Positions 111 to 47,600 of a stretch of DNA of 64,000 nucleotides are shown in pieces; the stretch's first letter is position 1, and each line of letters starts with the position of its first letter. The translations under genes and the position numbers were made by a program. The notes beneath the pieces are model-generated. The model was given only the letters and a program-made list of their open reading frames with translations, searched no databases and was not told the origin of the DNA. The stretch is from Patiria pectinifera (taxonomy: Eukaryota; Echinodermata; Asteroidea; Valvatida; Asterinidae). The stretch covers positions 10,788,001 to 10,852,000 of the forward strand of contig CM057141.1 in the NCBI GenBank assembly GCA_029964075.1, given 5' to 3'.

Positions 111-3100
111 TAGAAATGAAAACGTACACTAATTTCATCACTAGATCTCGTCTCGTCATGAGATCTTATCTCATCACTAGATTTGATAACGCCACGGATA
201 TTTTTGCGAAGACGGCATCCCCACCTAAATGGTGATGTTGCGCAGTCTCCTGAAAATATTTACTACTGTATGTGTGACCAAATCTGGAGAGAAACAAATC
301 ATGTCCAGCGAGAGATTTTTGAAACACAATACAGCAAACCGATGAAATTTGTCCTTGATTTTTGCCGCAAAGAACCCCGGAACAAACCAACTGTAGAATC
401 ATGTTAGAGTCATCAGCTTCAAATCTGCATTTTTAAATGGCAAAAAAATGTCAGAAGTTAAAAAAATTTTCAGAATTAAATTGGAAAAAAATAAAATAAA
501 ATAAAGGAGGGCTTTTAATTAATGTAATTATCATACCATTGTGGTAGTGAACGGGAAAGGATTGACAGAAAAAAACCACTTAGATGAATTACAAATTTTT
601 ATTTATTTTTATTTAGGACATGTACATATTATATAGTCAGGCCATCATGCAAATTCATTGTCTTTTTTTGTGTGTGTGTGTTTGGGAATTTTTTTTTTTT
701 TTTTTAATCTGTCTCTTAAGTCAATGGAAAGAAGGACCGCGCTGTACGTGGTCGCCATCATGATGTTAAATGAATAGTTGTGATTTATATAGTGATTGTG
801 TGAATTTGTTAAAAACAAAAACAAAAAAACCTGACACTAACATGCAAGTTGTACATACAGTGCAAAGATAGACAAAACAAACATAAACAAACAAATAGAT
901 GAGGGAAAATCCTTTTACCATACTTTTTCACCCGGTTGTTTTCTCTATTTTACTTTCTGTAGAGCTCTCTCAGTGCTCATTTTTTGGGGATTTAATTTTA
1001 TTTCTAAATTGTGTTGGGAAAATTAAATCAGAGAGATTTCGCCTCCGAATGGATACGTGTACGTATATGTTTAGCTATCCATAACCTATCGACCATTGGG
1101 TTGTTTCGCATCCTGTAGGCATACACATTCGTTTAGGCAATGGAACGGTTACTAATAAAAGCAGTAATCCGACATGGCAGCCTCCGATGAAAGCCTCATG
1201 CCTGCGGCTAACCCTGCTTTGAAACACCGACAAATGGAACATTTAGGTTCAGTAATTCATGCTCTTTCAAGCAAATCAAACACAACTAAATAAATTAGCA
1301 CAAAACAGCCTGGAAATGGACAGTTCACTATGCGTTTCACATTGACGCATAGCGCGCGTAATATCCATGTTGTGCCAACGCGTAGCATATAGCAAGTTGC
1401 GTATGATGTCACTAGACCACACAAAGGAAGGAACTATCTGGCGCACCGACCGTATCCGTTCGTTCGCGAAACCTCTCTAATATGCGACAGCAAATAGGTG
1501 ATTTCCAACTATGAAGCAAACCTTTTTTCTTTTTTTTCTTTTGTATGAACGTTTGGCAACAGTCTTGGTTATGGGCAGAGTCAGTGGTTTATTCTGGCGG
1601 AGAGTTCCGGTTAGCGTATTACCCCCTTGTTCCTTGTGATTGTTCGTATTTATTATTCTAGAGAGAATTTCCCCCCTATTTGTGAGGGCGAAAAATATGT
1701 GAGGGTGAAACATCCTGTTGTATATACTAAAAGTCACCAACTAGTGTTTTTCAATCTCTGGAAAGACAAAAAAAAATCATAGCTGATCTGTCAGTTTTGG
1801 GGGGTTGTACAGTTGTGGGCCTTTTTTTTTTCCTTTAATCTTTTTTTAATTTGAGAATGAAAATCAACACAAATTTCATTCAAACAAACACGTTGAGCAT
1901 CATCGGCACATTTTATATGGCAACTTAGATAATTGTGACCATTTAGTTGTTTGGTTTTGCTAGAAACCCTGAGTGAAGTTGTATTCCATATTAGAAGATC
2001 TTGCCCAGTTTTATCATTTTGTTGCCTAATAGTAGACATTGCAGTTAATACAGAATGGCATTTCGTTTGAGAATAACTCCCTGGTGACTCAAGGGTTTTA
2101 CAATATCGATTGCTGGACACCCTTTGGAACCACAAACACTAGGGTTGTTTTTACCAGGTTCGAGCCAAAGAAACAAAAGATTTTCCTTTGAAAATGCAGC
2201 TTGTGGTGTCATAATCACTGGTCATTGCGAGTCCATCACCAGTCAATCACAAGTCATCCAGGCCCAAGTCAACTCACAAGTTATTCAGTGAACTGCTACG
2301 AAGGCATTCCTTTGCAATGGTTCGTCTACTCTTGTGACTAGACTTGTGAACTGGCTTGCGATTAACTTGCGACTGGACTTGTGATGTGCTTGTGATCCAT
2401 GTACCTGATTGGCCACCAGCGGGGGAAATATGTCGGATAAAACTGGGCACGGTTTTTATTAAACACTGTTACGAATGTGTGAACTGTTGTACGTAGTTCC
2501 CGTTTTGTCATTAGTGTTGTAGGAAGTACAGCGAATCCGATAATTGAGATACGGTCTTTGAGAAGCATCGGTTGTGTCTAGCAACTGTAAGGCTGAAGCT
2601 CACGATTTGAACTTGGACTGGGCAGAAATTACAACCCTACTGTCGTTTCATGTGTGTGTCGCCTCATGCCATGTGCCTGTATCACTCGTGCATAAATCAA
2701 CATACATGTATGTGATACACAAAACAGCAGAAGTCAACATTTTTGATAGAGAATGTCATTGTGCTGGCTAAGATCGTTTCTGACTTCTCAAAGACGTAAA
2801 CTCAACTGCAGGGATTTTCATTTTTTATTTTTATGGACCCTGGGACCAATTAGACTTTTAAAAAAAATCAAACTATGGCAAATAATTTGTGTTCAAAAAA
2901 AGTAATGAGATTTCCGCAGATTTATATCCAGTATTATTTCTTTTGTTTTGTCAAAATAATTAGAAATGTGTTAAAAAAAGAGTTAGGTTAATTCTAATAC
3001 ACTCTCTAGTTGATATGTATACAACTTGCACAGCCGCAAACTTTGTTGGTCTTTGTGTTGTTGACTTTATTTACTGTTGTGCTGTGTGTATGGAACGTCC

Positions 3101-3130
3101 GGCCACGTGTCCTGTCCACATGTTTCACAT
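110..3130. other. gene-free stretch
   Basis: I see no coding exon or RNA gene here. There are AT-rich spacers, T and A runs, a short GT repeat near 670, small palindromes (for example the CTAGATCTCG and GAGATC cluster at 142-182), and the inverted array annotated at 2221-2396. Confidence 0.5.
2221..2396. repeat. inverted arrays of an ACTTGTGA-type short repeat
   Basis: The left part (2221-2290) holds several copies on one strand (caccagtcaatcacaagtc, caactcacaagt). The right part (2330-2396) holds the complement (cttgtgactagacttgtgaa, cttgcgactggacttgtgat). The two arrays face each other across about 40 bases and can fold back on each other. Confidence 0.6.
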
Positions 3131-3569: not shown

Positions 3570-5000
3570 AGATGTGATGACATAGGGGTTAAGACTGGAG
3601 CCTTGGGTAACTTGAATATACTTGGCACAGCAGGGCACGGGGAACTAGTCCACCAGCGTCCTTCCAAATGAGGCATATTAAACTGAAAAACAAACAAAAT
3701 TTCCCTGATCGAAGAAACATGACTCCATGCTTTTTCATTTGTCATACCTATATCCAGTCTTATCTACACTGATCTCATGTCCTGTTACAACTAGGTTACA
3801 GAAGTTGTTTGTTTACTTGTTTTGTTTTTGTTTGTTTGTTGTTTGGGTTTGTTTTGAGTTTGGCCTGGTCATAAATCTTTTAGTTGTCTTCAATGTTGTT
3901 TTCTTGTCATTTTGTTAGTCTGTGTGCACGTCAGTTTGCCCATTCCTTTTTCTTTAAAATAGCTTAATGTGTAATGTCTTGGCCATCTGTAATGTGATTC
4001 TGTATGTTCTCTTTGTCAGTCTGTCTGTTTTTCTGTCTGTAGCTTCTCTGTGCCTCCCCTGTAATTCAAATGCAGTCATTATTTCTTGCTTTCTTCCCCC
4101 CCCCCCCCCCTCCCCGGTAGCACTCGGCACATATCGCTCTTGCATGTTGTGAGTACTTGGGCATCTCAACCCGTGCGTTTTCAACACTTTATTTCGAGCT
4201 CTCGTTTTTTTGTCACATTTCTTATGATCCCTTGTTTTTTGGGGGTTTTTTTAAGTTTTTTTTTTTTTTTTGGTTATTCGGCACCAAACACAGATGTGCA
4301 CACCCCCACACACACATACAAACCATGACCATGAACATCATAGGTACAAGCAATAAAACAAGACTTATTAAGTTTTAAAAAATTCTTTTAAGAAACAAAA
4401 AGAGATTAAAAAAACTTCACACTATGTGTCAGTTGTTGTTGAACTTCTCTTTTGCTGCAGCTGTGGGTTTGTGTTTTTAATTTTCTTTTGTTCTTGAGTA
4501 GCTACGATAGAACTAGCTGCCCACACAATTTATATATAAATATTTAAACAAATAAAACTTAAATCTTGTAGTCAACTTGTGTGAGTGGACTTTCTAATTA
4601 TGCACATGTGCAGTGCTTTTGTCAAATAAACAAACAAAAAACTTAAGATTAAAAAAAAAAAAGTTGGGTCATCTTTTTTTTTAAATACAATTCAGTTGTG
4701 CACAGGTCAGTCTCTCACAGTGTACAGTTGAAATCTTTCTTTTTTTGGGAAAAAGTGGTCATGTGGTGTTAGCACATAGAATTCTTCAGTTCACCGTGGT
4801 ATTGAGTATTGGACTCATTCTTGATAAAAAAAAAAAAAAACAATTATTGGATTGCAACAGCACACACATCTGTGTATACAATAAACGGGCGTAATATTTT
4901 AGAGTAATGTAACAAAACAATTTGATGTAACACACTAGTCGATTTTTATGCACTGTGGTAAAATCGATCTAGGTTACAAATTTGATGTCATTGCAGATGT
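3570..5000. other. gene-free stretch with low-complexity DNA
   Basis: Only TTTG-type repeats (about 3805-3850), a C run near 4100, T runs, a short CA-rich patch near 4300 and A runs are seen. The short ORFs here have no coding character. Confidence 0.5.
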
Positions 5001-5002
5001 TA

Positions 5003-5153
5003 CGCCCCAATTAGAGCAGTGGTCCCAACTACAGTTGGGACAGTCCTAACTAGTCCTAACTGTACTTGGGACAGTCCCAACTGTACTTGGGACAGTCCCA
5101 ACTGTAGTTGGGACCGTCTTAACTATAGTTGGTACGATGCTATAGTTGGGGTG
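5003..5153. mobile_element. short member of the CAACTATAGTTGGGAC element family
   Basis: The ends are GTTACGCCCCAA and TTGGGGTGTAAC. Between them lie repeats of CCCAACT(A/G)TA(C/G)TTGGGACAGT, each itself a palindrome. It is a small relative of the larger element at 8961-9861, reduced almost to its two ends. Confidence 0.75.
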
Positions 5154-5592
5154 TAACACATCTCTCAATTGGAAACTTTGGGGCAAGAGTGTGCATAGCA
5201 AATTATAATCTTCAGCCTGTAATTAAAGTGATGCAATTTTTGTTTACATTTGTTTATATTTATGACATGTCAGATCAATTGTCAAACTATTTAGCCCCCA
5301 TCGATTGCTAGGTTAATCGGTAACTGTCGATAACATGTTTGTGATGTGGGGGGGGGGGGAGCCATGGTATGCCCAACAGCAGCGAATGTTACATGATAAG
5401 CTTAGTGTTAATAAAAGTTGCACCATTTTGTATAAAAGTTATTAAGGGGGCATTGTGTAAAAAGCCAAGTTGACTTTTTCGTAGGTCGCTATGATGATAA
5501 TTCAACTTTTCAACTAGCATGATAACATTTCAACTGTTGCTTAATGAATGAACGAGCATTCTGCATTGTTACTGTTGCGCCTTGTGATGTAT

Positions 5593-7050: not shown

Positions 7051-7136
7051 AATCGTGAATATTGACGTCAATGGTTGCGACCGGAGAGCGAGACACGATT
7101 TTTTTGACGTAAATATTTACGTCAATATTCACGATT
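7051..7136. repeat. inverted repeat with TGACGT (CRE-like) cores
   Basis: AATCGTGAATATTGACGTCA on the left pairs with the complementary run ending ACGATT on the right. A third piece, CAATATTCACGATTTT, occurs at 7210. It is probably a transposon remnant. The TGACGTCA core is noted, but there is no reason to claim regulation. Confidence 0.6.
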
Positions 7137-8463: not shown

Positions 8464-8960
8464 AGGTACAGATTGTCATGATTTTTGGGCCGAAAAATCG
8501 TTAAAAATCTCACATGAGGAGTTCATGAAAGACTTGAAAAGGGGTAGTTTCTGAAAGGGTGGAATTTCAGGAGTTTGTGTGACTAGTTTTTTTGTTATGT
8601 TTCCCATGACGCTTTTTGATGCTGGGGGGTTTTGTTGTCGGGGTGCCTTCAGCAAGGTGTTTAAAATATGGTGCGCGGCGGTGTCACAATGGCTGCCTAT
8701 TTCTTCCTCCATGCTTTATGCATGCATGAAGCAATAATATTTCAATGCTGTGATTACTGGGGTAAATTTTGGAGAATTGCTTTATTGGGGAAAATTACAT
8801 TATACAAATCTACAATTCTGCTAAAAAAATTAATATAGTAATATTTCAACTGTTTCTGAATATTTTCCAAACTTGAACTAAATTTGCATTAAACATGTTA
8901 AAATTAGCTTATTTTTGTCTTTGCTTTTTTGCCCTAGGCTTCTAGTTCCTGAATATGTTT

Positions 8961-9861
8961 GTCACGCCCCAACTATCGCATCGGTCCCAACTATAGTTGG
9001 GACTGTCCCAACTATAGTGCGGCAGTTGGGTCGGCCCAACTATAGTTAGGACTGGAGTTGCGCCGTATGCTTCATGCTTGATAGATCTTGTTGGATTAAA
9101 TGTTCCGCGGCGCTGGCACTGGTTCGTCGTGCATGCATGCCGCAAGGCTGGCCGGTCACGTGGTACTGCCTAGTTGGATGAGTTGTCCAGCTGCTGGGTT
9201 TTATTATCCAGCAACATTTTGCAAAATTCAAAGATTGCCATGGCCGGCCAACTATAGATGGGCCCCACATATAGCTAATGTCAAAGGTCCCAAGTCGGAC
9301 ATGTAAGCAGAGCTGTAGAGAATGTTTTATAGTCGTACATCAATGTAAACTATAGTTGGGACTGCCAAATAAAAATATTGCGGTGGCCCAACTACAGATG
9401 GTCACCACCCATAGATCATTTCATTGGTCCCCGTAAAGTCACATGTGTATTAGAGTTGTAGGGAATGTTTTATAATCGTACAACAATTATGTTCACTATA
9501 GTTGGGACCGCAAAATAAAAAGATTGGGGTGGCCCAGCTATAGATTCGCCCCATCAATAGCTAATTTCAGTGGTCCCCAGTAAAGTCAGACCTGTATCAG
9601 AGCTGTAGGGAACGTTTTATGGTTGTACATCAATGTAAACTATAGTTGGGACACCGCAAAATAAAAAGATCGGAGTGGCCCAACTATAGATGGGCCAGCC
9701 CAGTAATGGAACTTACAGTTGGGACCGTCCCAACTATACTTGGGACAGGCCCAACTATAGTTGGGCCAGCCCAACTGTGGAACTACAGTTGGGACAGGCC
9801 CAACTATAGTTGGGACAGGCCCAACTATAGTTCGGACCGATGCGATAGTTGGGGCGTGACA
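8961..9861. mobile_element. complete element with CAACTATAGTTGGGAC terminal arrays
   Basis: Both ends carry GTCACGCCCCAACTATCGCA continuing into TCGGTCC as a perfect 27-base inverted repeat, flanked by ATGTTT on each side (apparent 6-base target duplication). Next to the ends lie several copies of the self-complementary CCCAACTATAGTTGGGAC. The interior holds three or four degenerate direct units beginning GGCCCAACTATAGATGGG/TTC. No transposase is encoded. A 6-base duplication is unusual; superfamily not assigned. Confidence 0.85.
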
Positions 9862-9869
9862 TGTTTAGT

Positions 9870-10515
9870 CCAGTGTCTAACCAGACTGTTCTGAGTACAA
9901 TGTATAATGAAGAACAAGATTCAATGTTTTTTTAAAATTATTCTTGAATATACATCTCTGCATAAAGCCAAAAAAAAGGACAAAATAAATATAAACTATA
10001 TTGGAGAAATGTTTTCTGTCATCAAAGATATACTTTTGCTAAGTTAAAAACCCTTTTTTTGGCCGTATAATACTTTCAACACACAGTTGGGTGAATGTTA
10101 ATACAAGGTTTCCATGGATTTCTATTTGAGGTCCCTGGATTGGCCATCCTGGTTCAAATCAACCTCAAATATGACAGCTCCGAGGAAATTTACACATACC
10201 AGCTATTAAAGGACTACCATAAAGGGGACCTGAGAATACAAATTTAGGATAATATGATCTCATCTAAATGAACTTGAAAATGTTTTCCAAACCTTTCTCA
10301 AATATTTTGAGGTGATTTGGATTTTTCTTTTTAATTTTACACCCCGCACCATGCCGACAGAATAATTCGGGTTGGACATGCCCCTTTAATGGACCATAAC
10401 TTCACCATACTTTAAGATATAAACTTATAATTGGTACCATTAGATTTCTTTTTGGAAGCTCTTTCCAATGATACCAAGTTTGTAATATTTGGACTAAAAA
10501 ACCCCCAAAGTGCCG
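9870..10515. other. gene-free spacer between two copies of one element
   Basis: AT-rich sequence with no recognisable exon or repeat lies between the complete element and its truncated relative. Confidence 0.4.
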
Positions 10516-11570
10516 ACCACCCTATTGATAGATCTTGTTGGATTAAATGTTCCGCGGCGCTGGCACCGTGTATTCGTACTTGTCGTGCATGCATGCCGCA
10601 AGGCTGGCCAGTCACGTGGTACTGCCTAGTTGGATGAGTTGTCCAGCTGCTGGGTTTTATTGTCCAGCAACATTTTGCAAAATTCAAAGATTGCCATGGC
10701 CGGCCAACTATAGATGGGCCCCACCCATAGCTAATGTCAAAGGTCCCAAGTAAGGTCGGACATATAAACAGAGCTGTAGGGAATGTTTTATAGTCCAGTC
10801 GTACATCAATGCGTGGAGAGTGATGGCCTAGCGGTTAAGAACACCGGACTCACGTTCTGGTGTTTCAGAGGCAACAGTGACGTGGGTTCGAGCTTGTGGG
10901 TTCGTGACGTGGGTTCGGACACTTGTGCTCTTAAGCAAGGCACTTAACCATTATTGCTTCGTCCTTCGGATGGGACGTTAAGCCGTAGGTCCCGTGTGTT
11001 GTATAAATGCACGTAAAAGAACCCAGTAAACACTTATCGCTAAGAGAAGGGGTTTGCCCCGGTGTTTCTGGCCTCCTGTATAAACTCCAGGAGTATGTGT
11101 GGAGTATTTAGGAGAAGAACCAACCAAGAACCAAGAACCAAGAACTAAACTATAGTCGGGACCGCCAAATAAAAATATTGCAGTGGCCCAACTACAGATT
11201 GTCCCCACCCACAGATAATTTCATTGGTCCAAAGTAAAGTCAGATGTGTATTAGAGTTGTAGGAAATGTTTTATAATCATACAACAATGTACACTATAGT
11301 TGGGACCGCAAAATAAAAAGATTGGGGTGGCCCAACTATAGATTCGCCCCATCAATAGCTAATTTCAGTGGTCCCCAGTAAAGTCAGACATGTATCAGAG
11401 CTGTAGGGAACGTTTTACAGTTGTACATCAATGTAAACTATAGTTGGGACACCGCAAAATAAAAAGATCGGAGTGGCCCAACTATAGATGGGCCAGTCCA
11501 ACAGTGGAACTTACAGTTGGGACAGGCCCAACTATAGTTGGGACAGGCCCAACTATAGTTGGGACCGATC
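10516..11570. mobile_element. second copy of the CAACTATAG element, left-truncated, split by a SINE
   Basis: From TTGATAGATCTTGTTGGATT it follows the 9079-9850 copy closely, including TTCCGCGGCGCTGGCAC and the repeated units. It is interrupted at 10812-11145 by a SINE. Its right end stops at GGGACCGAT, where a large foldback element begins. Confidence 0.85.
10812..11145 (+). mobile_element. tRNA-derived SINE
   Basis: The head has a pol III A box (TGGCCTAGCGGTTAAGAACA) and B box (GTGGGTTCGAGC, 10883-10894). The body reads GTGCTCTTAAGCAAGGCACT and TCGGATGGGACGTTAAGCCG. The tail is a run of CCAAGAA repeats. The empty site is known from the 9340 copy of the host element (ATCAATG|TAAACTATAG), so the borders are well supported. 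Confidence 0.9.
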
Positions 11571-12332
11571 CCACTAGTGTGGCCGCGGTGTGCTGCGCTG
11601 AACCTCTAGCCACACACCGTGGTACCGCGCACTACTGAGGGCGTTTTCATAAAATTTACAGGTAGTTTCTTAAATATGGTTGTATTCTATGATCCCATCT
11701 ATCACTTCTGTATCCCATCTATCACTTCTGGGATGCTTAGGTGTAATGATGTTCAATTTTCCGAGATATTCTTGAATCTTTCTGGAGCCCATATGCACTC
11801 GTGAAACGTCTGGTGATGGCAGCCATTTTGAATGTGACAAGAGATGACCTCAAGCTGCGACGTCGCGTTTATGCAAATTGCTTGTCGAGCGAGGGCGCGA
11901 GTTGCAAATGCGAAGGCTGTTTCCTGTGTCGCGCGCGTCGTCCAAGCCGTCGACATCGATGCCCGCGCAGCGCATGCGCAGGGTATTATTTTCATTTTTG
12001 ATTGGAACAGGAAACAGCCGTCGCATTTGCAACTCGCGCCCTCGCTCGACAAGCAATTTTCATGAACGCGACGTCACAGCTTGAGGTCATCTCTTGTCAC
12101 ATTCAAAATGGCTGCCATCACCAGACGTTTCACCAGAAAGATTCACGAATATCTCGGAAAATTGAACATCATTACACCTAAGCATCCCAGAAGTGATAGA
12201 TGGGACATCATAGAATACAACCATATGTAAGAAACTGAATGTAATTCTTATGAAAACGTCCTCAGTAGTGCGCGGTACCACGGTGTGTGGCCAGAGGTTC
12301 AGCGCAGCATACCGCGGCCACACTAGTGGGGC
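11570..12332. mobile_element. large foldback element, arms about 350 bp
   Basis: CCCACTAGTGTGGCCGCGG at the left end and its complement at the right end start two arms that stay nearly complementary to the centre near 11945-12005. The arms include GCACTACTGAGG, ATGGCAGCCATTTTGAATGT and GCTTGTCGAGCGAGGGCGCG. Transcribed, it would form one very long hairpin. There is no ORF of note; the overlapping open frames arise from the palindrome. Confidence 0.9.
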
Positions 12333-12995: not shown

Positions 12996-13474
12996 GGGAC
13001 AACTCAACCGTTGAGACAACTCGACCATTAAGACACCTCGACCGTTGAGATAACTCAACTGTTAAGACACCTGGACCGTTGGGACAACTCGAATCAGGAC
13101 AATTCGACTGTTGGGAAAGTCGACTTTGTCATGGAGACAACCAACCAGGACCGTGCGAGACGTTGTACAAGATTTAAACATGTAACAGCGCACGTGGTAT
13201 TTTCCACAATTGAGAGCCCGTCGATGTTTGGGCATTTGCGTTGCGGGTAAATACTTAAAAGTCGCATAATCTGTAACAGGACCGTGTGCTGGGACCCGGC
13301 CAGGTGAACGGTGGTACGGCATGCACAAAGTGGGCAGAGCGGTGGCTGTCATCCCCCCCCCCCCCTAAAAAAAAATGTGAGTCGACTTGTCTCAACGCAC
13401 AAATTGTCTTTTCATTTGACGCACAGACGGTCGAGTTGTCCCAACGGTCGAGTTGTCTCAACGGTCGAGTTGTT
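12996..13474. mobile_element. inverted-repeat element with tandem-array ends (AACTCGACCGTTGAGAC)
   Basis: The left end (12996-13125) has about seven degenerate copies of a 16-17 base unit (GACAACTCGACCGTTGA). The right end (13425-13474) has three copies in reverse orientation (ACGGTCGAGTTGTC). The interior has no coding potential, and a C run and A run near 13355 mark slippage. Confidence 0.8.
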
Positions 13475-14436: not shown

Positions 14437-15335
14437 AGAACACCCCTCTAGCCATACAATGGTAGGGCCCTCTGGTAAACAACTCCTTATATGGAGATTG
14501 ACTCGTGCGTTGCGCGTACTGCGTGATGTGGCGCACAATGCAGATGTACTGTAGAAGTGTGAATTGAGGACTGTGAAATACTGACTCACTGCTACCGGTA
14601 GTATTGGGCATGCCCACATGAGGATTGTGAACGTTCAACCAATAAAACGGTGCTGGCACCAGATTTTATCGGAGTCCAAATTTCATGTGACACTGGAGAA
14701 GTGTTTAAGACCAGCCAGCCATGTCTTTATCAACCATTTAGAACCGGCCACGTGATGGTCTCTCGACCAATAGGAATGGGTAAACTGTCGTAGGTATATG
14801 ATTTGTGTATCAGTAGAGTCAGCGACAGTCAAACTTAATAAAAGTGCAAAGATAAAGTGTCTTACTCACTCAGATGTGTCGCAGAATGACAAAGCCAAAG
14901 ACCATTCAGAAGTGAGGCCGCTATTTGCACGCTTAAGATTTGATATGAATTCAGTGAATGACACTTTTTCTTACGCCATTAAAATGCATTCATAAATACC
15001 TAAGACAGTTTAGCCATTCCTATTGGTCGAGAGCCCATCATGTGGCCGGTCTTAAACGGATGATAAAGACATGGCTAGCTGGTCTTAAAACACTTTTCCA
15101 GTGTCACATGAAATTTGGACTCCTAAAAATCCAGTGCTCTTACTGTTTTATTGGTTGAACGTTCGTAGGCATGCTCAGTACTCGGAATTTTATGGTCCTA
15201 AATTCACAACGCAACGCCCCAGGTGCATTCTGCGCGACATCGCGCAGTACGCGCGACGCGCATGCCAATCTCCATAAAAGGAGTTGTTTACATCTTACTC
15301 GCCAGCTGGACACTCCATTATTTAGCTAAAGGGGT
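14437..15335. mobile_element. foldback element, arms about 350 bp
   Basis: Left arm 14437-14800 (AACAACTCCTTATATGGAG, GTTCAACCAATAAAAC, CGACCAATAGGAATGGGTAA) is repeated in reverse at 14985-15335. A unique centre of about 185 bases separates them. Single arms recur at 18146-18270, 27830-28080 and 53890-54270. Confidence 0.85.
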
Positions 15336-15571: not shown

Positions 15572-18145
15572 TTAGTAACATTGGTGGGTAATTATGTCCT
15601 TAAAAATTTAGTAAGAAAAAAAAAGGCTCAAATTGAAGAAAGGACTGGCACCAAAAACCTGAAATGGCATTGCTCGAAAGAAAGCAATCATTGAATTTGG
15701 TTTAGAATTATCCCTGCCAATCATTCCGGTTCAAACTTTTTTTTTTAAGAAGGCCTATAAATAATTGATTTCTGTTACCACAGCATGCCTGTTCAATACA
15801 GAGAACCATGCCCTCTCATATGGAATGATAGTGAAATCAAATTTTAGTGTTTGGTGCTTCTTTGGTTTACATATGTGTTATTGACCTCAGAGATATTTCT
15901 TAGTTTTGTGTCCATTGGTGCATAACCTTGCATTGTTACACATCTAAAAATACATTTTCATCATTTGGCAATTCAACCTGAAAGTGGACACGGCAAAAAA
16001 AGTGGAAAATTTATAAAATCTTCAGAACTACAAGCATCACAACCCGAAATGTTGTATCAAATTAAAGGGGACAATAAGACCTTTCATAGAGAATGTGGTA
16101 GTATTTTTTATTTATTTTTTTTAGAATGGTTTCGAAGCTAAAATTATAGATTTAGGTAGTCATTTTCACATGCAAAACGCAAGTGTTTATTGTGAGTTTT
16201 TGTTTTTTAGGCACAGAAAAAGATTCATGTTTTATAACAAATAATAAAACAGAGAACTTATCGGTAGAATACTATAACTCAGCTAGTAAGTTTAAATGTA
16301 TCACGTGTGTGAAGTTGATTTCAGACGTGTACATATGTAACATTCATAGCGTTTTAATATAACATCTGTAACAACACAAATATAATGTTTCCATAAAACA
16401 TCAAAGTAGCTTTTTTGTAAAATGACATTGTATTAAATTCCTGCAAGAAACTTGTACATATCAACGAGTATATAAATTACAAATCCATGTACCTATGCGT
16501 ATACATACATGTGCATAATTAATATGCTTTACAGTGACATACATGTCAGGGTCATTCTGTAAAGTTAAGGTCTAAAATGTGATATTTGTCAGGTCCCTGT
16601 TACCTTGGTAAATTGTGATTTGCCATTCAAGTATTGGGTGGGTATACATGTAGTTTGCTATTAGTAATCACTCTCGGAAGACGACGCTGTGAAGGAGTGC
16701 ATCAGAATTATATAAATGTAATGTAGATGTAACAGAGACAGAAAGAAAAGAAGACCCCAATGTATAGAATGACCCCGTTATCAATAATCAATAGAATTAT
16801 TAACATAACACTGTGCATACATGCTGATGCATGTACAGGAAAGGGCATTTTGCACTTTGACCTTCCTCAACAAACAAAACAATCTATTTTTGGCAGCCTT
16901 GACACATACATGTACATGCACCTGTACTTGTACTGGTACTGTACTGTGCTGTCCATAGTTAGTACACTGTACTGTGGAAGTGTACTGTGATAAATGTTCA
17001 TTTACCCAAGTCCTAGCTGTACGGCAAGATAAAACAGAGGGTATGTATGTTCATGGAGGTCTAATTCTACCTCCATGGTATGTTGTGTAATTTGTGAGAC
17101 ATTTGTGTAATTGTAATGTAAATGGTCTGCAGGTTACATGTACATTGTGTACATGTACACTTGCTCTGTTGTCCTCATTGTTGACGTTCTGTTTTAGACT
17201 ACCTGGAACAGATACTATCTGTGGGCGCGGACATCCATGCATTTTTTTACATTGACTTAGCTCTAGCTCCCAGACCTATGTTCTTGAAACTCAATGGTTC
17301 TTGAGTCTGGAGTGCTAATTGGTATTAAACATATAGCAACCGATGAAAATTGGTGTGCAAATGAATAGATGTTTTCATTGGATGACGTCAGCCCGCCCAG
17401 GGCTACCTATGGTTACACGAGCCTCGATCGCTAGAAGGGTGGTGGTGGAAAGGGAGGGGCGTGTGACATCACCATGAATTGGGTGGGGTTTTTTTCAAAA
17501 AAAGTGTCATCCTGTTGGCAAAATTGAGTGTCTCTTGGTAATTATGCTGCAACAAATAGCACCACATAATTTCCAATAGTGCCCACGATTGCCACTTAGT
17601 ACATCACCCCCAAAAAAGTCAGATGGTGTCTTCCCCCCCCCCCCCCACATTTTTTCTGAAAAAAATGCTAGGCTACCTTCCACCACGGATGGCCTGTCAG
17701 TAAAAACATCCCCCCCCCCCCAAAAAAAAAAAAAAGTTGCTCTGGCAACACCCCGAAGCTTGGAATTTTTTTGCGTCGAACAAAGGTTCTCTACCAACTG
17801 AGCTATTCAGGCGATGTATTAGCAACTTCTCAATAAGTTACTGTCGTTGTTCAAGGGCGCTAGTCAGAAGCCAAACTAAAAGGTCTGTTTATTTGAAGTT
17901 GATCACATTCCGTATTTCTGCTTATTTGCCTACTTAGGTTATGTTTTTAAATATTTTTTTATTTATTTCTCGTTTTGTCTCATTCTACAGCACTCCCACT
18001 TTCTACCTCAATCATCTCGTGCTAGAAGGCTCCGGTTTGGCACCTTCATCACTACATCACTCATAGCATCAAGGGGCATAGGGTTTTGGTCAAGCAGTCA
18101 GCCAGGTAGGTAGTACAGTTTGAATCCCCAACACTGCTTTAAACT
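15572..18145. other. gene-free stretch
   Basis: It is AT-rich, with no convincing exon. A CTGTACTTGTACTGG repeat lies near 16920. C runs at 17630 and 17710 flank an inverted pair of AAAAAATG-type text. A tRNA-like fragment is noted at 17785-17815. Confidence 0.45.
17783..17817 (-). repeat. tRNA-like fragment (A-box half)
   Basis: On the minus strand it reads TGAATAGCTCAGTTGGTAGA, typical of the D-arm half of a tRNA. The following bases do not form a good anticodon or TPsiC arm, so it is a remnant or SINE head, not a tRNA gene. Confidence 0.5.
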
Positions 18146-18270
18146 CTCCTTATAATGGAGATTGGCACGCGTGCGGCGCGTACTGAATGATGTGGCGCAG
18201 AATGCAGCGGTGTTTTACTTGATGGGCTCTCAACCAATAGGAATGGGTGAATTGTCTCAGGTATAATGAA
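18146..18270 (+). repeat. partial arm of the 14.4-15.3 kb foldback family
   Basis: CTCCTTATAATGGAGATTGG, GATGTGGCGCAGAATGCAG and CAACCAATAGGAATGGGTGA match the left arm of that element, with an internal deletion. Confidence 0.7.
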
Positions 18271-18860
18271 TTTAAAAAAAACCTATTTAAAGAAATAATA
18301 GTATACTCCTAACAGTCCTGAATCCTTGAGTTATATATTTTTTCACACACCATGATAGTTAGGGTTAACGGACAAAAACAGATGTATTCAGTCATATTTT
18401 GTACTGTAAAGTGTATTTGTAGTTTAGGAATTTGATACAGATTGACAGCACAAGAGAGATGATAGTAGTTCATTTTGCCCAATTGATTGTTTTGTTCTGT
18501 AAAGGAAGATAGCATCAAAAGTGCATAGGAAATGACTCAAACTCATGATGGGCAGTGTGGCATTGGCCCTTTCTTGCAGGTCATTGTGTCCAAAAGTGAA
18601 TTTGGATCTACATGTATTATCCACACGTCCACTGCGCTAGCAACACCAAACCGTCCCTAAACCACCCCCCCCCCCAAAAAAAAAACACCACAACTTTGTC
18701 TCCATTTTGGGCTATGTTTTTTTTTTTAGATGCAAAAATTGCGTCATTATTTAGTCCACTCAGCAGTGTTATCAAAAATGCTTCTAAAGAGAGTTGTGGT
18801 GTGTGTACAGAGATCATGCATGTTGGCATCCGTTCAAAATCTCAATCATGTTGCTCTAAT

Positions 18861-35849: not shown

Positions 35850-37104
35850 ATTTGCGTCTGGAAAAATGAAGATTTATTTTCCAGTTTTCTCAAAAAGCAT
35901 ATCTACTGAGCTGAGACCAAGGTTTTGAACATTCTTTTGATTTTAACCCTAAAGGGCCTGGTTATTTTGACCATCTCTCAGCCGGGGGGGGGGGGATCCC
36001 CTAAGATCTTGGCCATCGAGTGATGAAAAATTATGAAACTCGGTGCATGCATAGAACAACTCAAATTACATACCCAAGAAATTTCATGACTACAGGTCAA
36101 AGGGTTTTGGAATTATGGCTAATTAATTCTGCTTTGTGTAGACTACATATAGTTTCCACGGCGTGTAGCTAAAAAGTCAGAACAGCTTGGGCTATCACGT
36201 AAAAAGTTGAGGGGGGCGCCCCCCCCCCCCCTTTACGGTCAAGTGGTGATATTATTAAAAACAAATAAAATGTATGAACATCAAAATGATCCAGTTTTGC
36301 TTTCTTTTTAAAGATGTTGAACCACGGACATTGTTCCAAATTGTTTTAAATAATAATTTGTTTGAATAATAATAAAAATAAAAGGTTTTTGGTAACTACA
36401 AACATTATGTGTGAAGTATTTGACACAATGGTGAGAAATATAGTTGCAAGCATGCGGTGATCTGTTGTATATAATTTTGAGCGCAATTACACTTTTTTAA
36501 AACCTTTGTAGGGATTATAAGGATGCGTTTTCTAGGGTGTTGGTTGGTCGATATTTGAGGGGGGGGGGGAAGTGTAGGTTTATGGGTTTGTTGGATGGGC
36601 CAGTGTCTGCCATTTAAATCTTATGTGAATATTGTATGCAAAACAATGCACAGATGTTGATGGTCGTTAAAGTTTGTTAATAATTAAGTTGCAAAAAACA
36701 GTTTTTGTCAGAACAGAATTCCATACTGGGCCACCACTCATATTCCTTAATATGACCTGAAAAATACCCAAAGATGTAAATCTGATGAAGAAACACTATT
36801 TAAGGAGTACAAAAATTCTTTTATAATACTTCAACTTTTTCTGTCATGGCCCATAGACTTCGTGCAGGAGGTCTGAGTGGTGGCGCAGTATGGAATTATT
36901 TCCGTTTTGGAAAACTGAACTGAAAGGAATCCTCAATAGACCGGAGTTTTCACTGAATAAAATTTGTCATTGACCACCAAATGGTTTGAAGCTTGTTTTC
37001 CTACTGTCTTTGTGGAGAATTCAAGTTAGTTGTGAATGTGCATGCATTCTCGCGTCTCACATTTCCACTTTTGATGGCAAATACTACAAACTTTTGTCGG
37101 TCAT
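35850..37104. other. gene-free stretch
   Basis: No exon is seen. A G run (35983), a GGGGCGCCCCCCC palindromic run (36212-36232) and another G run (36558) are the only notable sequence features. Confidence 0.45.
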
Positions 37105-37739
37105 ACTAAAAAGCGTCAACACAGCGTCAACACACTCCAAAGCGTCAACACGGCGTCAACACAGCGTCAACACATCCAAAATGCATTAAAAGTGACAAAA
37201 GCAGTATGTAACCCATATGGTGGTATGGACAACAAGATTTTTGACTCAAATAATCAATAGGTTAAACGAAAAAAAAATTTTCAGTTCAAGAAAATTAGTT
37301 CTCCGTAATTGCCCGAGATCGGCTGCCATGTTGCCTCAGTGTGTGCGCGCGCATACCATTATGTTAAAGGGTGATAGCGTTGTACAATGAACCTCAGTCC
37401 TCAAGTCCCTCAGTGATCGAGTGCCACTGGTGTCTCTCGCAGTCCCTCTCGCCCTCTGTTGATTTACAACACGTTACCTACTTGAATACTTGAAATGGTG
37501 TGCGAAAGGCTTTGTGCGAAGTCAAATGGTGGACAACGTCCGTTTCGATTGAAAATCATTTTCGCGTGAATATGCTATAAAATACTAAACAAAAAAAACT
37601 CAAAAATTCTATAATTCTCTCTCATATTATTCTTTACAATTATATGCCCATTCATGTGTGAGTCAGAATGTGTTTTGGATGTGTTGACGGTGTGTTGACG
37701 CTTCTGTCATGTGTTGACGCTGTGTTGACGCTTTTTAGT
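37105..37739. mobile_element. inverted-repeat element with GCGTCAACACA tandem-array ends
   Basis: The left end ACTAAAAAGCGTCAACACAG has five 11-base GCGTCAACACA-type units (37113-37173). The right end has the complementary TGTGTTGACGC units (37679-37730) and closes CGCTTTTTAGT. The interior is about 500 bases of AT-rich sequence without a transposase. Confidence 0.85.
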
Positions 37740-38426
37740 GCGACCCACTTTTGTGGACTGGCGTGATATAAGATGTTAGAAGTGGGGGATATATTATTTT
37801 TTCCCCCCCCCCCCCCCTTTCCGTCCCCGAATAAAAGTTGCAGCCTACGTTTGATTCTATACTCAGAATAGCCAATTCAATAACTCCAAACTCAAAAATT
37901 ATGTTTAAATGATGATCTTTTCCTCGAAAAATTGATTTAAGTGGTCGAAATTGCCTTAGGTTGCGCCATAGCGCGTCTAGACGCCAACTTTTTCTGGGCC
38001 CTAGGGAAATCCCCAGGCCAGTCGAGCAGGCCGGTCTAATAATTGTTGTGCCGTTAGAGGGCGCACTATCGATCACCAGCTATTTTGGTCCGGCGCGCCA
38101 GCTAGCGTACGACATGCGCGACAAGTGTGGGACATCTGCTCGATCGGAAATATCTCAAGTAAATTACTAATATAAAACTAATATTTACAGATTCTTCGTG
38201 GCCTGTATTTTGTTGACAAAACTTATCTGAAATTATGGTAATCCTTACCTTTAGGACCCCATTCCTGTAGCATGTATTAGCTTGACTTGAGTAACTCCAG
38301 CTGACATGCTCATATTCATTCACCAGTCCGAGTAACTTGGACCCTCATAGTTCTAGGAGTAACCTAGGCCTAGTCCCACTAAGTGACTAACTGGGTCGCT
38401 AGAACCCCTATTTTGACATTTGGGAT

Positions 38427-39797: not shown

Positions 39798-39921
39798 TGT
39801 GGGAGTAAGTGGTGGTAAAAAAGAAAAGATGGATGAGATTGTTACTGCTGTGAAAAATACAATGAGTGATACATGTAGGCGTGCAGTTGAGAAGAAGTTC
39901 AATGAGATGTTAAAGGAGTAT

Positions 39922-40894: not shown

Positions 40895-41339
40895 TAATAA
40901 TGCAGGGGTGTACTTCCTTCATCCTCATCTGTTGCAGTTTTTCGAGTGTACAAAGGATGAGAACCAACTTAAGAGTGCAGTGTATGCAGATTTGAAGGTG
41001 AAAGAGTATAAGACAGGATTGAGAGCATTGGGAGTGATTGACAAAATTGTGACTGGGCCGCTGTGGGATGTTCAGTATGCCGTGCCGGTCAAAGACCTTA
41101 CAAAATTTGAAGATTGGTTCACAGTCAAATATCCACTGCCTATCAGAAAATGGCTGCAGAATTTTTCTAAAGATCATGGGTCATTCAATTAGCAAATATC
41201 AAGTGAAAAAGAAGTCTTGATTTGAGAGTATTAGAGATACCTTTATGGAGGTAGAGAGGGTCGTAAATTTTTAGAATATTAAAAGTTTCTACGTTTGATT
41301 TTGATATGGTTTTGTTGTAGGCTATAACAGATCACACCA

Positions 41340-41632
41340 ATGGCCAACAATCCTAACTTGACTTCTTTTGCCCCCAACAGTTTTCTCTTCATGATCCTCC
41401 TCTGGCGTCATCTTCTCCGCCTCATCCTCGCCGCATTCTCCCTCCTCATCTTCTGCGAGTTCCTGATCTACTACTTCATCGCCCTCCCGTGCTCATGGCC
41501 GCAGCTGCCCCGAGGTGACGGGGGTAGGGATGCCCCAGGGGGTGGGGAAACGGCTCCCCTGCGTGCCATGTTCCTGTCCGACACCCACCTACTTGGGAAC
41601 AGACTTGGTCACTGGTTTGACAAGCTACGCAG
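41340..41632 (+). CDS. MPPE1: MPPE1 coding exon 1
   Basis: The exon encodes residues 1-97 plus two bases. It carries the signal-anchor segment ([19 protein letters not shown]), a Gly/Asp-rich linker, and the first phosphoesterase motif in [11 protein letters not shown]. The donor is CGCAG|gtatgc. Confidence 0.93.
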
Positions 41633-44600
41633 GTATGCTGGTCATTCTTGTATAGCTTTTTCCCTCGACAATTTAATTACACTTTAGGCATGTTTATTCC
41701 TCAATATTTACCAGTTTGACGCAACTCTTTCCAACGGATTTCCGTGTTGGTGAGCCGTGAAATGCCTCTAATATGCAAAATGGGTGTGGTGGTGAAGCCA
41801 CCTCCCCAAAGAAATGGGTGAGGCAAAAAAAGCTACCTCCCCCACAAAGCCAGCGAGGATGCAAAGCCGCCTTGATTGATATCAAATCAAGTCCAACTAA
41901 ACATACCTTACACATTAGCCTTGGCAGTTAATGAATGACAGGCAGCACCTTTCTTTTTCTTCGTAAAGGTACAGTCTTTGACAAAATGGTCGCTTTATTC
42001 GGCATTACTACAGAACACAGCAGAAAGCCCAAAATAGATGAAGTCAATAATTTGACACAGATCAGTCAAACTAAACCTAACGTCAACATTTTTGTCTCTG
42101 CAATCAATGAATGACAGAGACCAGCGTAGCCACTCCTTGGAATTGTCCCAATATCTTGGGAGTTCAGTCGTTTTGCTGAGCCTTTGGACTTTTTGCGTAT
42201 TGAGAACACACGAAAGTATGGATTACGCAATGCGCAAAATGTTAATTGAAACACTTTGTGAGACCCATTTACATAAAAATATTTTGCGCCTAAAATTTGG
42301 CGGTTTGAGTTTGGCCGTCGGTAAAGCAGAATAATTGCGTTACAGTCAACTTCATGACCTTTTTCTCGTTATAGTTATAGTGTGTAGTTATTACCTAGTT
42401 TTAAAACAGTTTTATTGTGGATGCATAACATGACAGAAACTGATCAGTGAATCATCAACCCCGTCTCCTTGTTTCTTTATTCTCAAGTTCCCCAGCCTTT
42501 AGTTTAGTTCTGTAATTCTCCCAAGATTGTTCAGCCAGGCTATACATGATGCTGATAGCTTTGAAAATCTTGGGAATTTTTCTGCCGTCATCTTGGGATT
42601 TTCAAATTTGATGAGTGGCCACACTGATAGAGAGTGCCCTTTCATACTCTTTTGACTGTAGGGAATGGCAGATGCAGAGAGCGTTTCAGACAGCGATGAC
42701 CTTAGCCAATCCGGATGTGGTCTTTATTCTTGGCGATCTGACTGACGAAGGAAAATGGGCCAGTGATCAGGTGGGGAAAAAAATAATATCCAAAATTTCG
42801 TATTTGGCTCCTCTTTTTTTCATACGGCAAAAAAGAAACAAAAGTTTGTTCGCGGTTACCTTGCCCAACATGGAGTATCGTGCAGAACTTAAATCATTTG
42901 AATGATAAATAATGGGGGGAAAAAATGGTACTGCCCCACCCTAATTTTGGTGGACATCCATTTCATCCATTTCTGAAACTTACAGCAAAAGCAAATGTTG
43001 TATATTCCCTTTAACCCTAACAGAACTCAACCCATCAAACCTCAACGGCATGTTTTGTTGGAATCTGTCAGGATGGGTACAGTACCCCTAAACTGACAGT
43101 CTTTTACATTGGGTTGGCACACCTCCAGAATCAAAGTCAGAAATTTGTGTGTGCAGTTTCCCATATGGTGTTGGAATTGGCCATGATGGGTATGGTTCCT
43201 AGTAAATCATGCTAGGGAGTTAGGGTTATTAAAAGGAGGTGCAAAAACTGTTTGAGCTGAACATGCTTAAGAAAGTTTTAGTCTAATTTTTGTTTCCCAC
43301 CCAACAGGAATTTGGCGAGACAGTGGAACGCTTCAATAACATGTTCAAAGTGGGCGAAACTATTGAGTTCCATGTTGTCGTCGGCAATCATGACATTGGA
43401 TTCCATGAATCGTAAGTTGTTCTTCATCCGAAGAAATTCAATCAGAGATTATGTTTGGCCAGAGGATTTCATCATCCAATTTTTGCAATTCCTTAAAGAT
43501 CAAAAGATGTGTTTTTTTAATCAGTATATATGATCATATTATGAGATTCAAGTCGGACTTTTTAAGAGTTATCGCAGATATCTGATTAATGATTCAGACC
43601 ATTTATACCAAACTGACAAAAAAGGCCCCCCAAAAAATACTTCTGCTTCCGGTTACCTGACCGACCCTATTTTGAGGCCACGACCCTTAACATTTTATCA
43701 GCAAGTCAAAAAAAAAAAAAAATTTAATAATAAATTTAAAAAAATCCTGTTGTCTTTTCTGTCTTCACAAAACACCTCTCAACAACCCTTTTGCATCAAA
43801 AATGCTTGTATTTAGTTGTTTTCCTACTTACATTCGCTCTTTTTTAAAAAGAAACCTCCTTTGTTTTTACAAGTTTGCTTCGCGATAACTACTAAACTAC
43901 ATGTAGTTCGCAATTTAAACATTCCTAAAAAAAACTTTACAAGTTACTTTAAACCATTTAAACTTTTGTAAGTAAACAAATGAATTCGCAGCTTGCAAAT
44001 TCAGTTAGTTACAATTGAATACCGCATTCAATCAGCACCCAAAAAAATTGGCCCCAAAAAAGTTCTTACCTATTTGTTCCAAACCCTATTTGTGAAAGGC
44101 ATGTAACCGGAAGCAGAAGCATTTTGGGGGGGGGGCCTAGTCTGTAGTTTCCTCGACCATTACTAGATGATGGATGTAAAAGATTTGAAAAAAATCTTTT
44201 TTCAGGTTTATTCACTGAATTCTAAAATCTCTGTCATGGACATTACCGTAATGCTGGAATTGTTCACGTCTTGTTTTTATATTATGTCAGGGTCACCAAG
44301 AGCAAGTTGGAACGCTTTCAGGAGATGTTCGACATTCCTCCCGTCAAAATCCTGACAATTAAAGACAATGTGTAAGTACAAGCCGCTGTGCATAATGCCT
44401 TCCTCATTTGTAAGCATATAAACACACTTGGTTAAGGGAATAAAAACGTGCCGGCCAGTCACATGTTTATTGTTTATTCGGTCAACAAGTCAAAACAAGT
44501 CAATACTTTTAACAAATTTCCAACGATTTTATGTAACAATTTCACATCAGTTTTGTGAAACACCCGTCTGGCAATATCTATGTTAGGCGAAATAAAAAAA

Positions 44601-47600
44601 ACAAACATGTTTCTCGTCCCGCCCGCTTCCTTTTCTGAGGCCGCCTGGATTTTTTTACTATTTTTTACTTTTGAAAAATGCAGTGAAAAAACACCGAAAA
44701 AGTCCACAAATTCATCGGAAAATAAATTGTAGACCAATACAAGTCTAAATGACACTGTAAATATGTTCAGTTCTCTTGTCCAACTTATCTTTCATTTTAA
44801 AAGTGTCTTTGAACAGTGGAAACACCAACAATTGCAGGAAATTTTAAATGGCGGCCATCTTGAAACAAATAAAAAATAAAAAATAAAAAGCCCCGCTTCC
44901 TCCTTTTTTTCGAAAACCCGGACGAGAAACATGTTGGTTTTTTTTATTCGGTCTTATGTGCCTCACGAGCGTGGAACTAAGAATTTTCTTGTATGGAAAT
45001 TGGCAGACGTGTGTTCCTGCTGGCCTGAGCCATGTCAACTGGGACAAGGCCTTCTCTTGGTTTGAATTGTGGCTTTTTTTTTATCCACAGCTTTGTTCTA
45101 GTCAACAGCATGGCCATGCACGGCGATGGCTGCTTCATGTGCAGCCCAGCCATGGACAAACTGCGCTGGGCGTCAGAGAGACTCAACTGCACGCGGTACG
45201 GATCGCCGTCCGGCAGAGCAAACGAGAAGGAAACAGTGAAGAAAAGATGCCAGAAATACAAGACGTTGCCAAACGTTAGACCGATTCTACTTCAGGTGAG
45301 CGGATACTAGCTTGTGAAGCCCTGTGGTGCGGAGTTTGACTCTTAGATTACGGTGCATGGGTTTGAGCCCTGACAGAAAATGTGTGCTTCTGTTCTGGGG
45401 CAAGACCATTTACTACAATTGCCAGTGTGGTAGTCAAGTACTTTTTCCAAGTACCGAGTACGGTCGAATACTTACGTTACTGAGTACGAGTATGAGCACA
45501 TGTACTTCCGAGTACAAGTTCAGGTCTCCGAGTATGAGTACTTTTACTTCCGAGTATGATAATGAGTACTTGTATTCCGCGTACTTGTACTCCGAGTACC
45601 TGTATTCCGAGTACGTGTACTTCTATATCCGAGTCAGCCATATGAAAAATGGTTCGTTTTATGTAATTGGCCTATGCCCAGTGAGACCGATATATAAACC
45701 CGCTCACGGCTAGCTGTTAAATGTGTTTGTCCGGAAGTGCACAGAGGAAAATAAGGAAACTTTGATTTCTCCACAAGCCAATCAACCATTTTCAACTGAA
45801 AATATTGATAAAATAAGGCCGTGGCTAGTCAAGCTATACCATTTTTTTTCTTTGATGATTGAGTACAATTTCGACCTGTCGAGTACGAGTACTTTGCTGC
45901 CCGAGTACGAGTACCGTCATTTCGAGTATGAGTACTTAGACATTTGAGTACGAGTACAAGTACTTTAACAAAAGTACTTGAGTAATACTCATGTTTGAAA
46001 ACCGAGTACGAGTACTACAACACTGACAATTGCCCCTCTCCACCAAGGAGTAATTAGTTCAGGGTAGAAGCCAGAAGGAAAGGTTTTGCTCAAAACTCAA
46101 AAAGACTCACTCCCAGTCCCTCCACTATAGTTTGTGTATTTATTGATGTATTCATTCATTTCAAGTATGCCATTTATCCCTACTTATCCCTTCATTATTG
46201 ACCCTTTCCATTTAACAATAGGATAAAGAAAATAAACATAAAAACACAATAAATTTTTTTTTACCTTTTCACTTCAGAAAAACAAACGAATGTGAAATTA
46301 CTGCAAATATTAAGATGAATTTTCAATAGGAGTTACAAAAACTATTTACATTGTCTTCTGTTTTGTTGTATACAAAGTTAATACTTGCATGATTTTTTTT
46401 TCTACTACAGCATTTCCCCATGTACAGGCCTGACGAGACACCATGCACAGGCCCTGATGCTCCAACTCTCAACCAACAAAGGAAGAAAAATACAGAAAGA
46501 TTTGATGTTATATCCAAAAAAGCTTCACAGCAAGTGAGTGCTACTTAAACAATTTTTTTTAAACCATTGCAATAGATTACTAGTCATTGCATTAATTAAC
46601 CCTAACCCTGTAGGCCCTTTTGGCTAGGAACCATCCTTAATCCTGCAAAATCCTCCAATTGCTATCATGTAAAAATTGGATTCAGCCTCAGTCCTCCAAA
46701 ATCCTCTGTTGTTTCTTTAATTTGTTCAGTGGAGGAGTGACCATTGCCTAAATAGCCTTTAAAATCCTCCAACAATCACTGTAATGTGTTGAGGCAGTGC
46801 CGATGACATTCAGGAGCAGTGCGGATGATATCTAGCATAAAAACCCCCATACCAGCCCAAATGCGACGCGGTTTGATTGACGTCATTTAAGCATTCTCAC
46901 TGCGGCATCCCGAGTTGAAATAATATGTTCAACTTACTGCACGTGCGTCTATGTTCTGCCACGACATCACAAATTCTTCACTACTTCTTTTTTGTTTTTG
47001 CAGGTAATGCAGGGCTCAATTCTATATGGTTGAATGCTGGGTACAGCTTACAAACAATTGCATTCTCCAAAATCAACCAAGACTTTTTTGCCATTCAGCC
47101 TCAATCCTCCAACTTCTTCCAAAACCACCTGGAGGAGTAAGGAGGGTCAGGATTAACTCGTATTCAGCTCTATTGACCCTTACCCTGCCAGATGTAACAC
47201 GGTGCATTGTGTGTTAAAGTCTGTGGGACCTCGCTGCATTGAGCCATCAACACCTGTGCATAAACGGCCATTTTCGGAAACAATGAGAGCCAGTCCCATT
47301 GAACAATGCCCCAGTTGTATCTTGCTGCAGTTGGCAACCACCGACTCTGAGGCAGTTTGGGCCAGACTTTTGACCTGATGGATCTTGCTACACCCAGCAG
47401 GCTTGTCATTTTGAAAAGTGTTGCATGTTCCTGCGTTTTGCAGAGTTTCTAGCCAAGATACCCTAGGGGCTTAGGATTAAGCATTGAAGCAGAACCCAGA
47501 ACATCTGTATAAAGTTATCCCCACTAACTTCGTATGGGCTCCCTTCTGAATGTGCACAAACTTATGGCATCTTCGCGTGAGCATCTAAGCCCAATTTCAT

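Follow-up and report, generated by a model that had tools for sequence, protein, structure and literature searches.

Short elements with array-built ends, probably non-autonomous transposons, in a 64-kb stretch of the sea star Patiria pectinifera genome

A stretch of 64,000 nucleotides from the sea star Patiria pectinifera (GenBank assembly GCA_029964075.1, contig CM057141.1, positions 10,788,001 to 10,852,000 of the forward strand), referred to below as the window and numbered from its first base, contains five short elements whose ends are built of arrays of a short unit. We consider it likely that these are non-autonomous transposons whose ends are arrays of putative transposase-binding sites, lengthened by tandem duplication. 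The arrays were first noticed in a sequence-only reading of the window. Our analysis revealed that the opposed short arrays are genuine and that the observation was largely right. The units are unrelated, and end types and target duplication lengths differ among the elements. The boundaries then given for element 5 (45423-46025) stand, whereas element 2 starts at 8960 (8960-9861) and element 4 extends over 37098-37746. For comparison with the rest of the genome (613,548,705 bases in 1020 contigs) a sample of 20 random 10-kb stretches, 200 kb in all, was used, with labels such as L034, L039 and L047. The features of the five elements are as follows:

2236..2282, plus strand: left array of element 1 with the core TCACAAG, units at steps of 11-15 bp (unit positions, direction, copies in L034)
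2329..2395, minus strand: right array of element 1 with the core CTTGTGA, 6 units at steps of 11-12 bp (unit positions)
8960..9861, no strand: element 2, TG...CA ends, terminal inverted repeat TGTCACGCCCCAACTATCGCATCGGTCC (genome search, copy ends)
8956..8959, no strand: element 2 left target duplication, TGTT, 4 bp (23-copy analysis)
9862..9865, no strand: element 2 right target duplication, TGTT, 4 bp (23-copy analysis)
8986..9052, no strand: left array of element 2, with three palindromic units (CCAACTATAGTTGG) at steps of 21 and 28 bp (unit positions)
9729..9838, no strand: right array of element 2, with five palindromic units at steps of 21, 28, 21 and 21 bp (unit positions)
9308..9695, plus strand: tandem repeat inside element 2 (2.7 copies with a period of 146 bp), array-like words in each
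12998..13114, plus strand: element 3 left array, seven 17-bp units GACAACTCGACCGTTGA (tandem-repeat and unit positions)
13424..13474, minus strand: element 3 right array, three 17-bp units and in addition a degenerate one at 13392 (unit positions)
37098..37746, no strand: element 4, inverted repeats containing the GCGTCAACACA array (boundary screen, arm alignment)
37090..37097, no strand: element 4 left target duplication, ACTTTTGT, 8 bp (boundary screen)
37747..37754, no strand: element 4 right target duplication, ACTTTTGT, 8 bp (boundary screen)
37113..37174, plus strand: element 4 left array, five 11-bp units (unit positions)
37680..37731, minus strand: element 4 right array, four 11-bp units (unit positions)
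45423..46025, no strand: element 5, ends CAGTGTGGTAGT and (complement) CAGTGTTGTAGT (boundary and duplication screens)
45415..45422, no strand: element 5 left target duplication, ACAATTGC, 8 bp (both duplication screens)
46026..46033, no strand: element 5 right target duplication, ACAATTGC, 8 bp (both duplication screens)
45455..45620, plus strand: element 5 left array, GAGTAC words (word positions, direction tally)
45860..46015, plus strand: element 5 right array, GAGTAC words, direction as in the left array (word positions, direction tally)

The window was scanned blindly at five settings, the loosest of which called for two or more occurrences of a 7-mer within 60 bases and for its complement, repeated in the same way, at most 1.2 kb downstream. 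This setting identified eight opposed-array regions (2247-2395, 5022-5150, 8968-9853, 11293-11563, 12998-13473, 16506-17157, 37111-37733 and 45435-45978), as compared to a mean of 0.275 and a maximum of 2 in 40 shuffles of the window in 1-kb blocks. All five places picked out earlier are among them; 5022-5150 and 11293-11563 are additional copies of element 2, and 16506-17157 is carried by a single near-palindromic 7-mer. With the four stricter settings there were 3, 5, 6 and 2 regions (shuffle means 0, 0, 0.025 and 0), with element 1 found at two of them and element 5 at none; even at the loosest setting element 5 was picked up through the words AGTACTT and CAAGTAC, GAGTAC not being involved. 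Array direction was assessed by tallying one word per element, forward and complement, in each arm. The arrays are opposed in element 1 (TCACAAG: 2/0 in the left arm, 0/4 in the right), element 3 (ACTCGAC: 1/0, 0/3) and element 4 (GTCAACAC: 5/0, 0/4). For element 2 the tally (CCAACT: 4/2, 5/5) is empty because the unit is its own complement, and in element 5 the arrays face the same way (GAGTAC/GTACTC: 7/1 on the left, 10/0 on the right, 17 vs 1 overall). Thus the opposed orientation that had been ascribed to all five elements holds for 1, 3 and 4, fails for 5 and is empty for 2, so that the design is strict in three of the five. In an inverted-repeat census of the window, 4 of the 26 candidates, belonging to three families, possess internally tandem arms (element 2, twice, element 3 and element 4), while elements 1 and 5 fall below the score limit. 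This census supersedes an earlier one (14 candidates, 3 of them array-armed), from which through-centre palindromes had been omitted.

A genome search with positions 8900-9900 as a query (1001 bases; 503 first-look candidates, 40 scored) revealed that element 2 is dispersed in many full-length copies, which account for at least 36 of the 41 matches listed at E = 0, the window's own included. They cover the query from 51-62 to 959-970 (the window's own covers it entirely) and, among the matches listed, the others are 91-97% identical to the window copy. Twenty fetched stretches (L014-L033) provided 22 copies with both ends. All 22 retain at least three array cores at both ends (a core being counted with up to 3 mismatches in 14). 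Thirteen of them are oriented as in the window; of these, 7 have identical right-array steps (50, 21, 28, 21 and 21 bp), two others differ by one step and the remainder are shorter, among them a 464-bp form in L025. When the window copy is added to the 22, an exact 4-bp duplication is present in 17 of 23 copies and a 5-bp duplication in none; in the chance control, 6 of 506 mismatched flank pairs agree at 4 bp. The flanks form 22 distinct pairs, as the copies in L014 and L017 look like one locus on two contigs. The ends read TGTCACG...CGTGACA (also given as TGTCACGCCCC), with the 4-bp duplication outside them, preceded by a purine in 22 of 23 copies and followed by a pyrimidine in 20 of 23. 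A 6-bp duplication, ATGTTT, was our first reading for element 2 and was overturned by the 4-bp duplications over the 23 copies.

The Ginger description (PMC2836005) gives TGTNR ends and 4-bp duplications for these elements, with CCGG or CCGT as targets of Ginger1 and RTATAY as the target of Ginger2. Element 2 resembles them in its ends (TGTCA...TGACA) and in the duplication length, but differs in the core target sequence: its target pattern is R-NNNN-Y, in which only the R and Y borders agree and which is otherwise varied, with TATA in 1 of 23 copies and CCGG, CCGT or ACGG in 0 of 23. Because the Ginger1 and Ginger2 targets are not those seen here, we call element 2 Ginger-like and not a Ginger; it looks like a putative Ginger-like transposon.

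Two further stretches of the window are related to element 2:

4998..5158, no strand: short relative of element 2, nearly all 21-bp palindromic units (unit positions, alignment)
10525..11573, plus strand: another copy of element 2, both ends truncated and the left one missing, right-hand array kept (self-comparison, alignment)

The former has no matching target duplication according to the duplication screen and to inspection of the 4-bp register on its flanks by eye. The latter contains an insertion of about 335 bp (10812-11146), which by eye is like a tRNA-derived short retroelement with a tail of AACCAAG repeats. This likeness is unsupported by Rfam (no hit up to E 1 in 10700-11250) and by ARAGORN with bacterial settings (none); at the gathering score Rfam reports no family anywhere in the window. 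The truncated copy is directly adjoined by a long, mostly perfect palindrome (11570-12330; arms of about 360 bp with gaps, ends CCCACTAGTGTGGCC), without a clear duplication.

Element 4 is known from one copy, and no second one was found in the 200-kb sample. Its duplication matches at 8 of 8 positions and was found among 420 boundary pairs; exact matches of at least 8 bases occur in 0.05% of random flanks when up to two bases of slack are allowed. The arms are alike throughout, with one extra 11-bp unit in the left. The duplication has the Mutator-type length of 8 bp, which is not decisive for Mutator because hAT, P and Merlin elements give 8 bp too. Target duplications are 8-11 bp long in Mutator and 8 bp long in hAT and P elements. 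For Merlin, 8 bp is given in PMC10045372. Element 4 looks like a putative transposon of another kind, with GGTC-type ends.

In element 5 the duplication screen places the 8-bp duplication exactly at CAGTG ends. A combination of an 8-bp duplication with CAG-type (CAGNG...CNCTG) ends is typical of hAT elements. Both are present here, and element 5, which is known from its ends and duplication, looks like a hAT-type element. Because its units were picked with a 12-base word, allowing 2 mismatches, the conserved core is uninformative and only the unlikeness of the spacers is informative; the spacers are mutually dissimilar, and the arrays are therefore a scatter of sites and not a strict tandem repeat. 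An old relative (70% over 183 bp) was detected in the random stretch L039, with 4 and 4 GAGTAC and 0 and 3 GTACTC words in its halves, ends recognisable by eye and flanks that agree, again by eye, at 6 of 8 positions. In L047 an array of GACTCGAGTC words (765-925, a GAGTC array) closes in ACTACAACTCTG, the complement of an end, CAGAGTTGTAGT, that is much like that of element 5; a second end of this GAGTC element was not found in the stretch. Outside the genome, the element 5 end word CAGTGTTGTAGTACTCG was present in five IMG/VR contigs (L001-L005; by eye only three distinct sequences), which we judged to be chance matches. The bases directly after the word contain no GAGTAC array, and GAGTAC/GTACTC occurs 1 to 7 times within 3 kb, compared to 1.1 to 1.5 expected. 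The words of element 2 and element 4 were found in 0 IMG/VR contigs.

Element 1, at about 2216-2397 in the window, recurs elsewhere in the genome, without definable ends. Two additional copies lie in L034, with alignments that cover 163 and 148 bases, and have in common with the window copy a centre flanked by opposed arrays. Units that differ from the core at no more than one position (leaving out the forward match at 2200, which falls outside the array) number 3, 3 and 4 in the left arms and 6, 19 and 2 in the right arms of the three copies. Element 3 is unproven as a transposon and is included by likeness only. A smaller but still appreciable probability belongs to the view that elements 1 and 3 are no transposons and consist of little inverted patches of satellite DNA, which would leave a group made up of elements 2, 4 and 5. 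The failure to find a duplication for either, the 4-5 bp matches at their unmatched ends being chance-like, speaks for it, as does the satellite-like appearance of the 19-unit right arm, but the copies of element 1 align across a non-repeated centre, which would be unexpected for dispersed satellite patches. The alternative that the window pattern is a local accident, with arrays lacking in other copies, found no support for elements 1, 2 and 5: the arrays are kept in 22 of 22 fetched copies of element 2, in 3 of 3 copies of element 1 and in the one old relative of element 5, and unit counts do vary between copies, as in the right arm of element 1.

According to the explanation that we favour, one animal genome would harbour several unrelated kinds of short, non-autonomous DNA transposons, and the short array word at or just inside both ends would most likely be the site recognised by the transposase of the respective family, which would be supplied in trans. 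A row of weak sites could hold more transposase and raise its specificity for the element's own ends, while tandem duplication and unequal exchange would make arrays grow and shrink, so that unit numbers come to differ between arms and copies. Multiple binding sites and slippage had been proposed as alternative origins; both fit, and their acting together is partly supported. A test of core against flanks (with 10 of 11 units for element 1 and likewise for element 3, after removal of the most deviant or outlying unit) found the core of element 1 to be more conserved (p 0.008, a result that is partly circular because the units were located by the core), as binding sites predict, whereas the unit of element 3 decays evenly, as plain duplication predicts; the variation in unit number between arms and copies is likewise as tandem duplication predicts. 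Element 4 had too few differences to tell, and the rows for elements 2 and 5 (p 0.025 and 0.064) were discarded, their units being out of register.

We regard it as unlikely that the arrays are mere by-products, in which foldback ends form hairpins at replication and slippage multiplies whatever word resides there, with no binding involved. Such a process would readily account for unit numbers that differ between arms and copies, for the internal 146-bp repeat of element 2, which is likewise tandem, and for the even decay in element 3. It agrees less well with element 5, whose unlike spacers and same-facing words do not have the structure expected of a hairpin stem that was simply copied in tandem, with the kept core and varying flanks of element 1 (p 0.008, partly circular), and with the five steps of the right array of element 2 that are identical in 7 of 13 same-orientation copies. 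Still less credible, to the point of being nearly dismissed, is a single family line or one common transposase, with the design inherited. All the elements are indeed short and without long reading frames, but 4 bp with TG...CA ends in element 2 contrast with 8 bp and CAG...CTG ends in element 5 and with 8 bp and GGTC-type ends in element 4, and the units are unrelated. Since end types and duplication lengths differ among the elements, the design is shared and not inherited.

Several observations weigh against transposons with binding-site arrays. No transposase turned up, and no search aimed at autonomous copies of element 2 was made. Six of the 23 copies of element 2 have no exact duplication, and the copies were taken from the top matches to the window copy, which favours intact, array-keeping ones. 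A stricter screen missed the duplication of element 4, because its ends differ at 3 of the first 10 bases and 2 were allowed. The window copy of element 1 has no duplication according to the duplication screen, and no fixed ends could be discerned by eye in its three copies. Element 3 decays evenly over its unit (p 0.44, 10 of 11 units), with no protected core; its ends have no duplication, the screen giving only a 4-base match inside the arrays, and in the sample it has no second copy, only low-complexity matches of 23-24 bases. Helical phasing of the units, which binding might predict, was rejected as a rule: the mean cosine of the steps at 10.5 bp is 0.56 for element 1, 0.72 for element 2 and 0.70 for element 4, -0.75 (antiphase) for element 3 and 0.14 (near zero) for element 5, and among eleven periods tried on the pooled steps 10 does better (0.40) than 10.5 (0.30).

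Array-bearing elements occur elsewhere in the genome, and the window looks somewhat rich in them. At the loosest setting the blind scan identified 13 regions in the unshuffled 200-kb sample vs 8 in the 64-kb window; at stricter settings the window and the sample gave 5 vs 3 (8-mers) and 3 vs 4 regions (three units). Three of the 13 are simple ACATGT-type palindromes, others include the element 1 copy in L034 and the array in L047, and L034 8931-9535 overlaps a copy of element 2 that is, by position, identical with the one in L026. Array-armed inverted repeats make up 4 of 44 candidates in the sample (two being ACATGT simple repeats) vs 4 of 26 in the window, after removal of 3 and 0 low-complexity candidates, respectively. 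We claim no excess, because the window was picked out for its arrays. The finding of five families in 64 kb, earlier called striking, is less so than thought, because such ends have been published in several superfamilies and because the direction is wrong or empty in two of the five. Another repeated family is marked by ATCCAAC / GTTGGAT words, which run both ways, and accounts for three of the 13 regions in the 200 kb (L035 4509-4690, a region merged with another word, L040 6032-6379 and L044 2116-2310). The window also contains repeats free of arrays: a dispersed control family with long inverted repeats (14475-15291, 27835-28086, 53658-54270 and 18146-18271), with more matches in L036 and L047, and a 661-bp inverted-repeat element (54677-55337) with a 78% identical copy at L049 5731-6372.

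The window contains ordinary animal-gene exons, as judged by eye, and one open frame (ATG/GTG/TTG start) of at least 150 residues, with 156. In Pfam searches a cytochrome b5 domain located within 57.1-57.5 kb passed the curated limit (E 2.8e-5), and a weak metallophosphoesterase match at 42615-42902 stayed below it (E 0.0026); the other 8 of the 10 stretches tested, plus one joined exon pair, matched no Pfam family. Exons over 41328-46535 look like those of an MPPE1-type metallophosphoesterase gene, and element 5 seems to sit in one of its introns.

The feature described here is real, was mostly correctly seen, and is of a known kind; what is new is the set of families and the analysis of the ends of element 2. 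A foldback-like structure (inverted repeats of opposed short tandem units) is found in elements 1, 3 and 4, and not in element 5. Like Drosophila FB, Tetris and Tm1, the elements have short tandem units whose number varies by end and by copy, but sequence and end type differ, and the duplications of elements 2, 4 and 5 are 4, 8 and 8 bp. In Tm1 of root-knot nematodes (PMC3169594), the ends carry variable numbers of 13-15 bp units and the duplications are 9 bp long; the same text credits to others the view that such ends arose independently from simple transposons, which is also given in the Tetris report (PMC4079207; units of about 220 bp). For Galileo, a member of the P superfamily, a published study (PMC3688188) states that tandem repeats in the long inverted repeats hold extra binding sites for the THAP domain of the transposase, and cites Sleeping Beauty and Bari as having tandem sites inside longer ends. 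The ends of Galileo are 0.5-1.2 kb long and of different sequence, and its binding was tested, whereas here binding is predicted. Herves, a hAT element, has a transposase that binds a short subterminal motif (PMC3143072). Element 5 resembles Herves and other hAT elements in its 8-bp duplication, CAG-type ends and short subterminal motifs at both ends, but GAGTAC is not the Herves motif and element 5 has many more repeats. The PIF/Harbinger element MtPH-A6-4 of the plant Medicago differs, with 60-bp units that contain a triplicated motif and a 3-bp duplication, and CACTA elements possess closely spaced direct and inverted subterminal repeats (PMC8978399). Since it has been published for several superfamilies, the design, together with the idea of convergence, was already known; these particular families were not found in print in a literature search by topic (not by sequence), which gave nothing specific for sea urchin, echinoderm or sea star elements.

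A more far-reaching possibility, which we put forward only as a speculation and think rather improbable, is that the array-ended design has been reached repeatedly by transposons whose enzymes are quite unlike (integrase-like, hAT and at least one more), because multiplication of sites would in general give a non-autonomous element an advantage over others in the competition for a shared enzyme. In that case, related hAT families would keep the outermost 12 bases, CAGWGTTGTAGT (element 5 and the single end in L047), and change the array word (GAGTAC vs GAGTC), which would amount to a running change of the recognition code. As it stands, the present work adds families to a known design and overturns nothing. 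If the arrays are binding sites, the sequence alone would give the recognition word of each transposase, including that of the integrase-like-ended element 2, and many array-ended families in one genome would allow the relation between site number and copy number to be tested.

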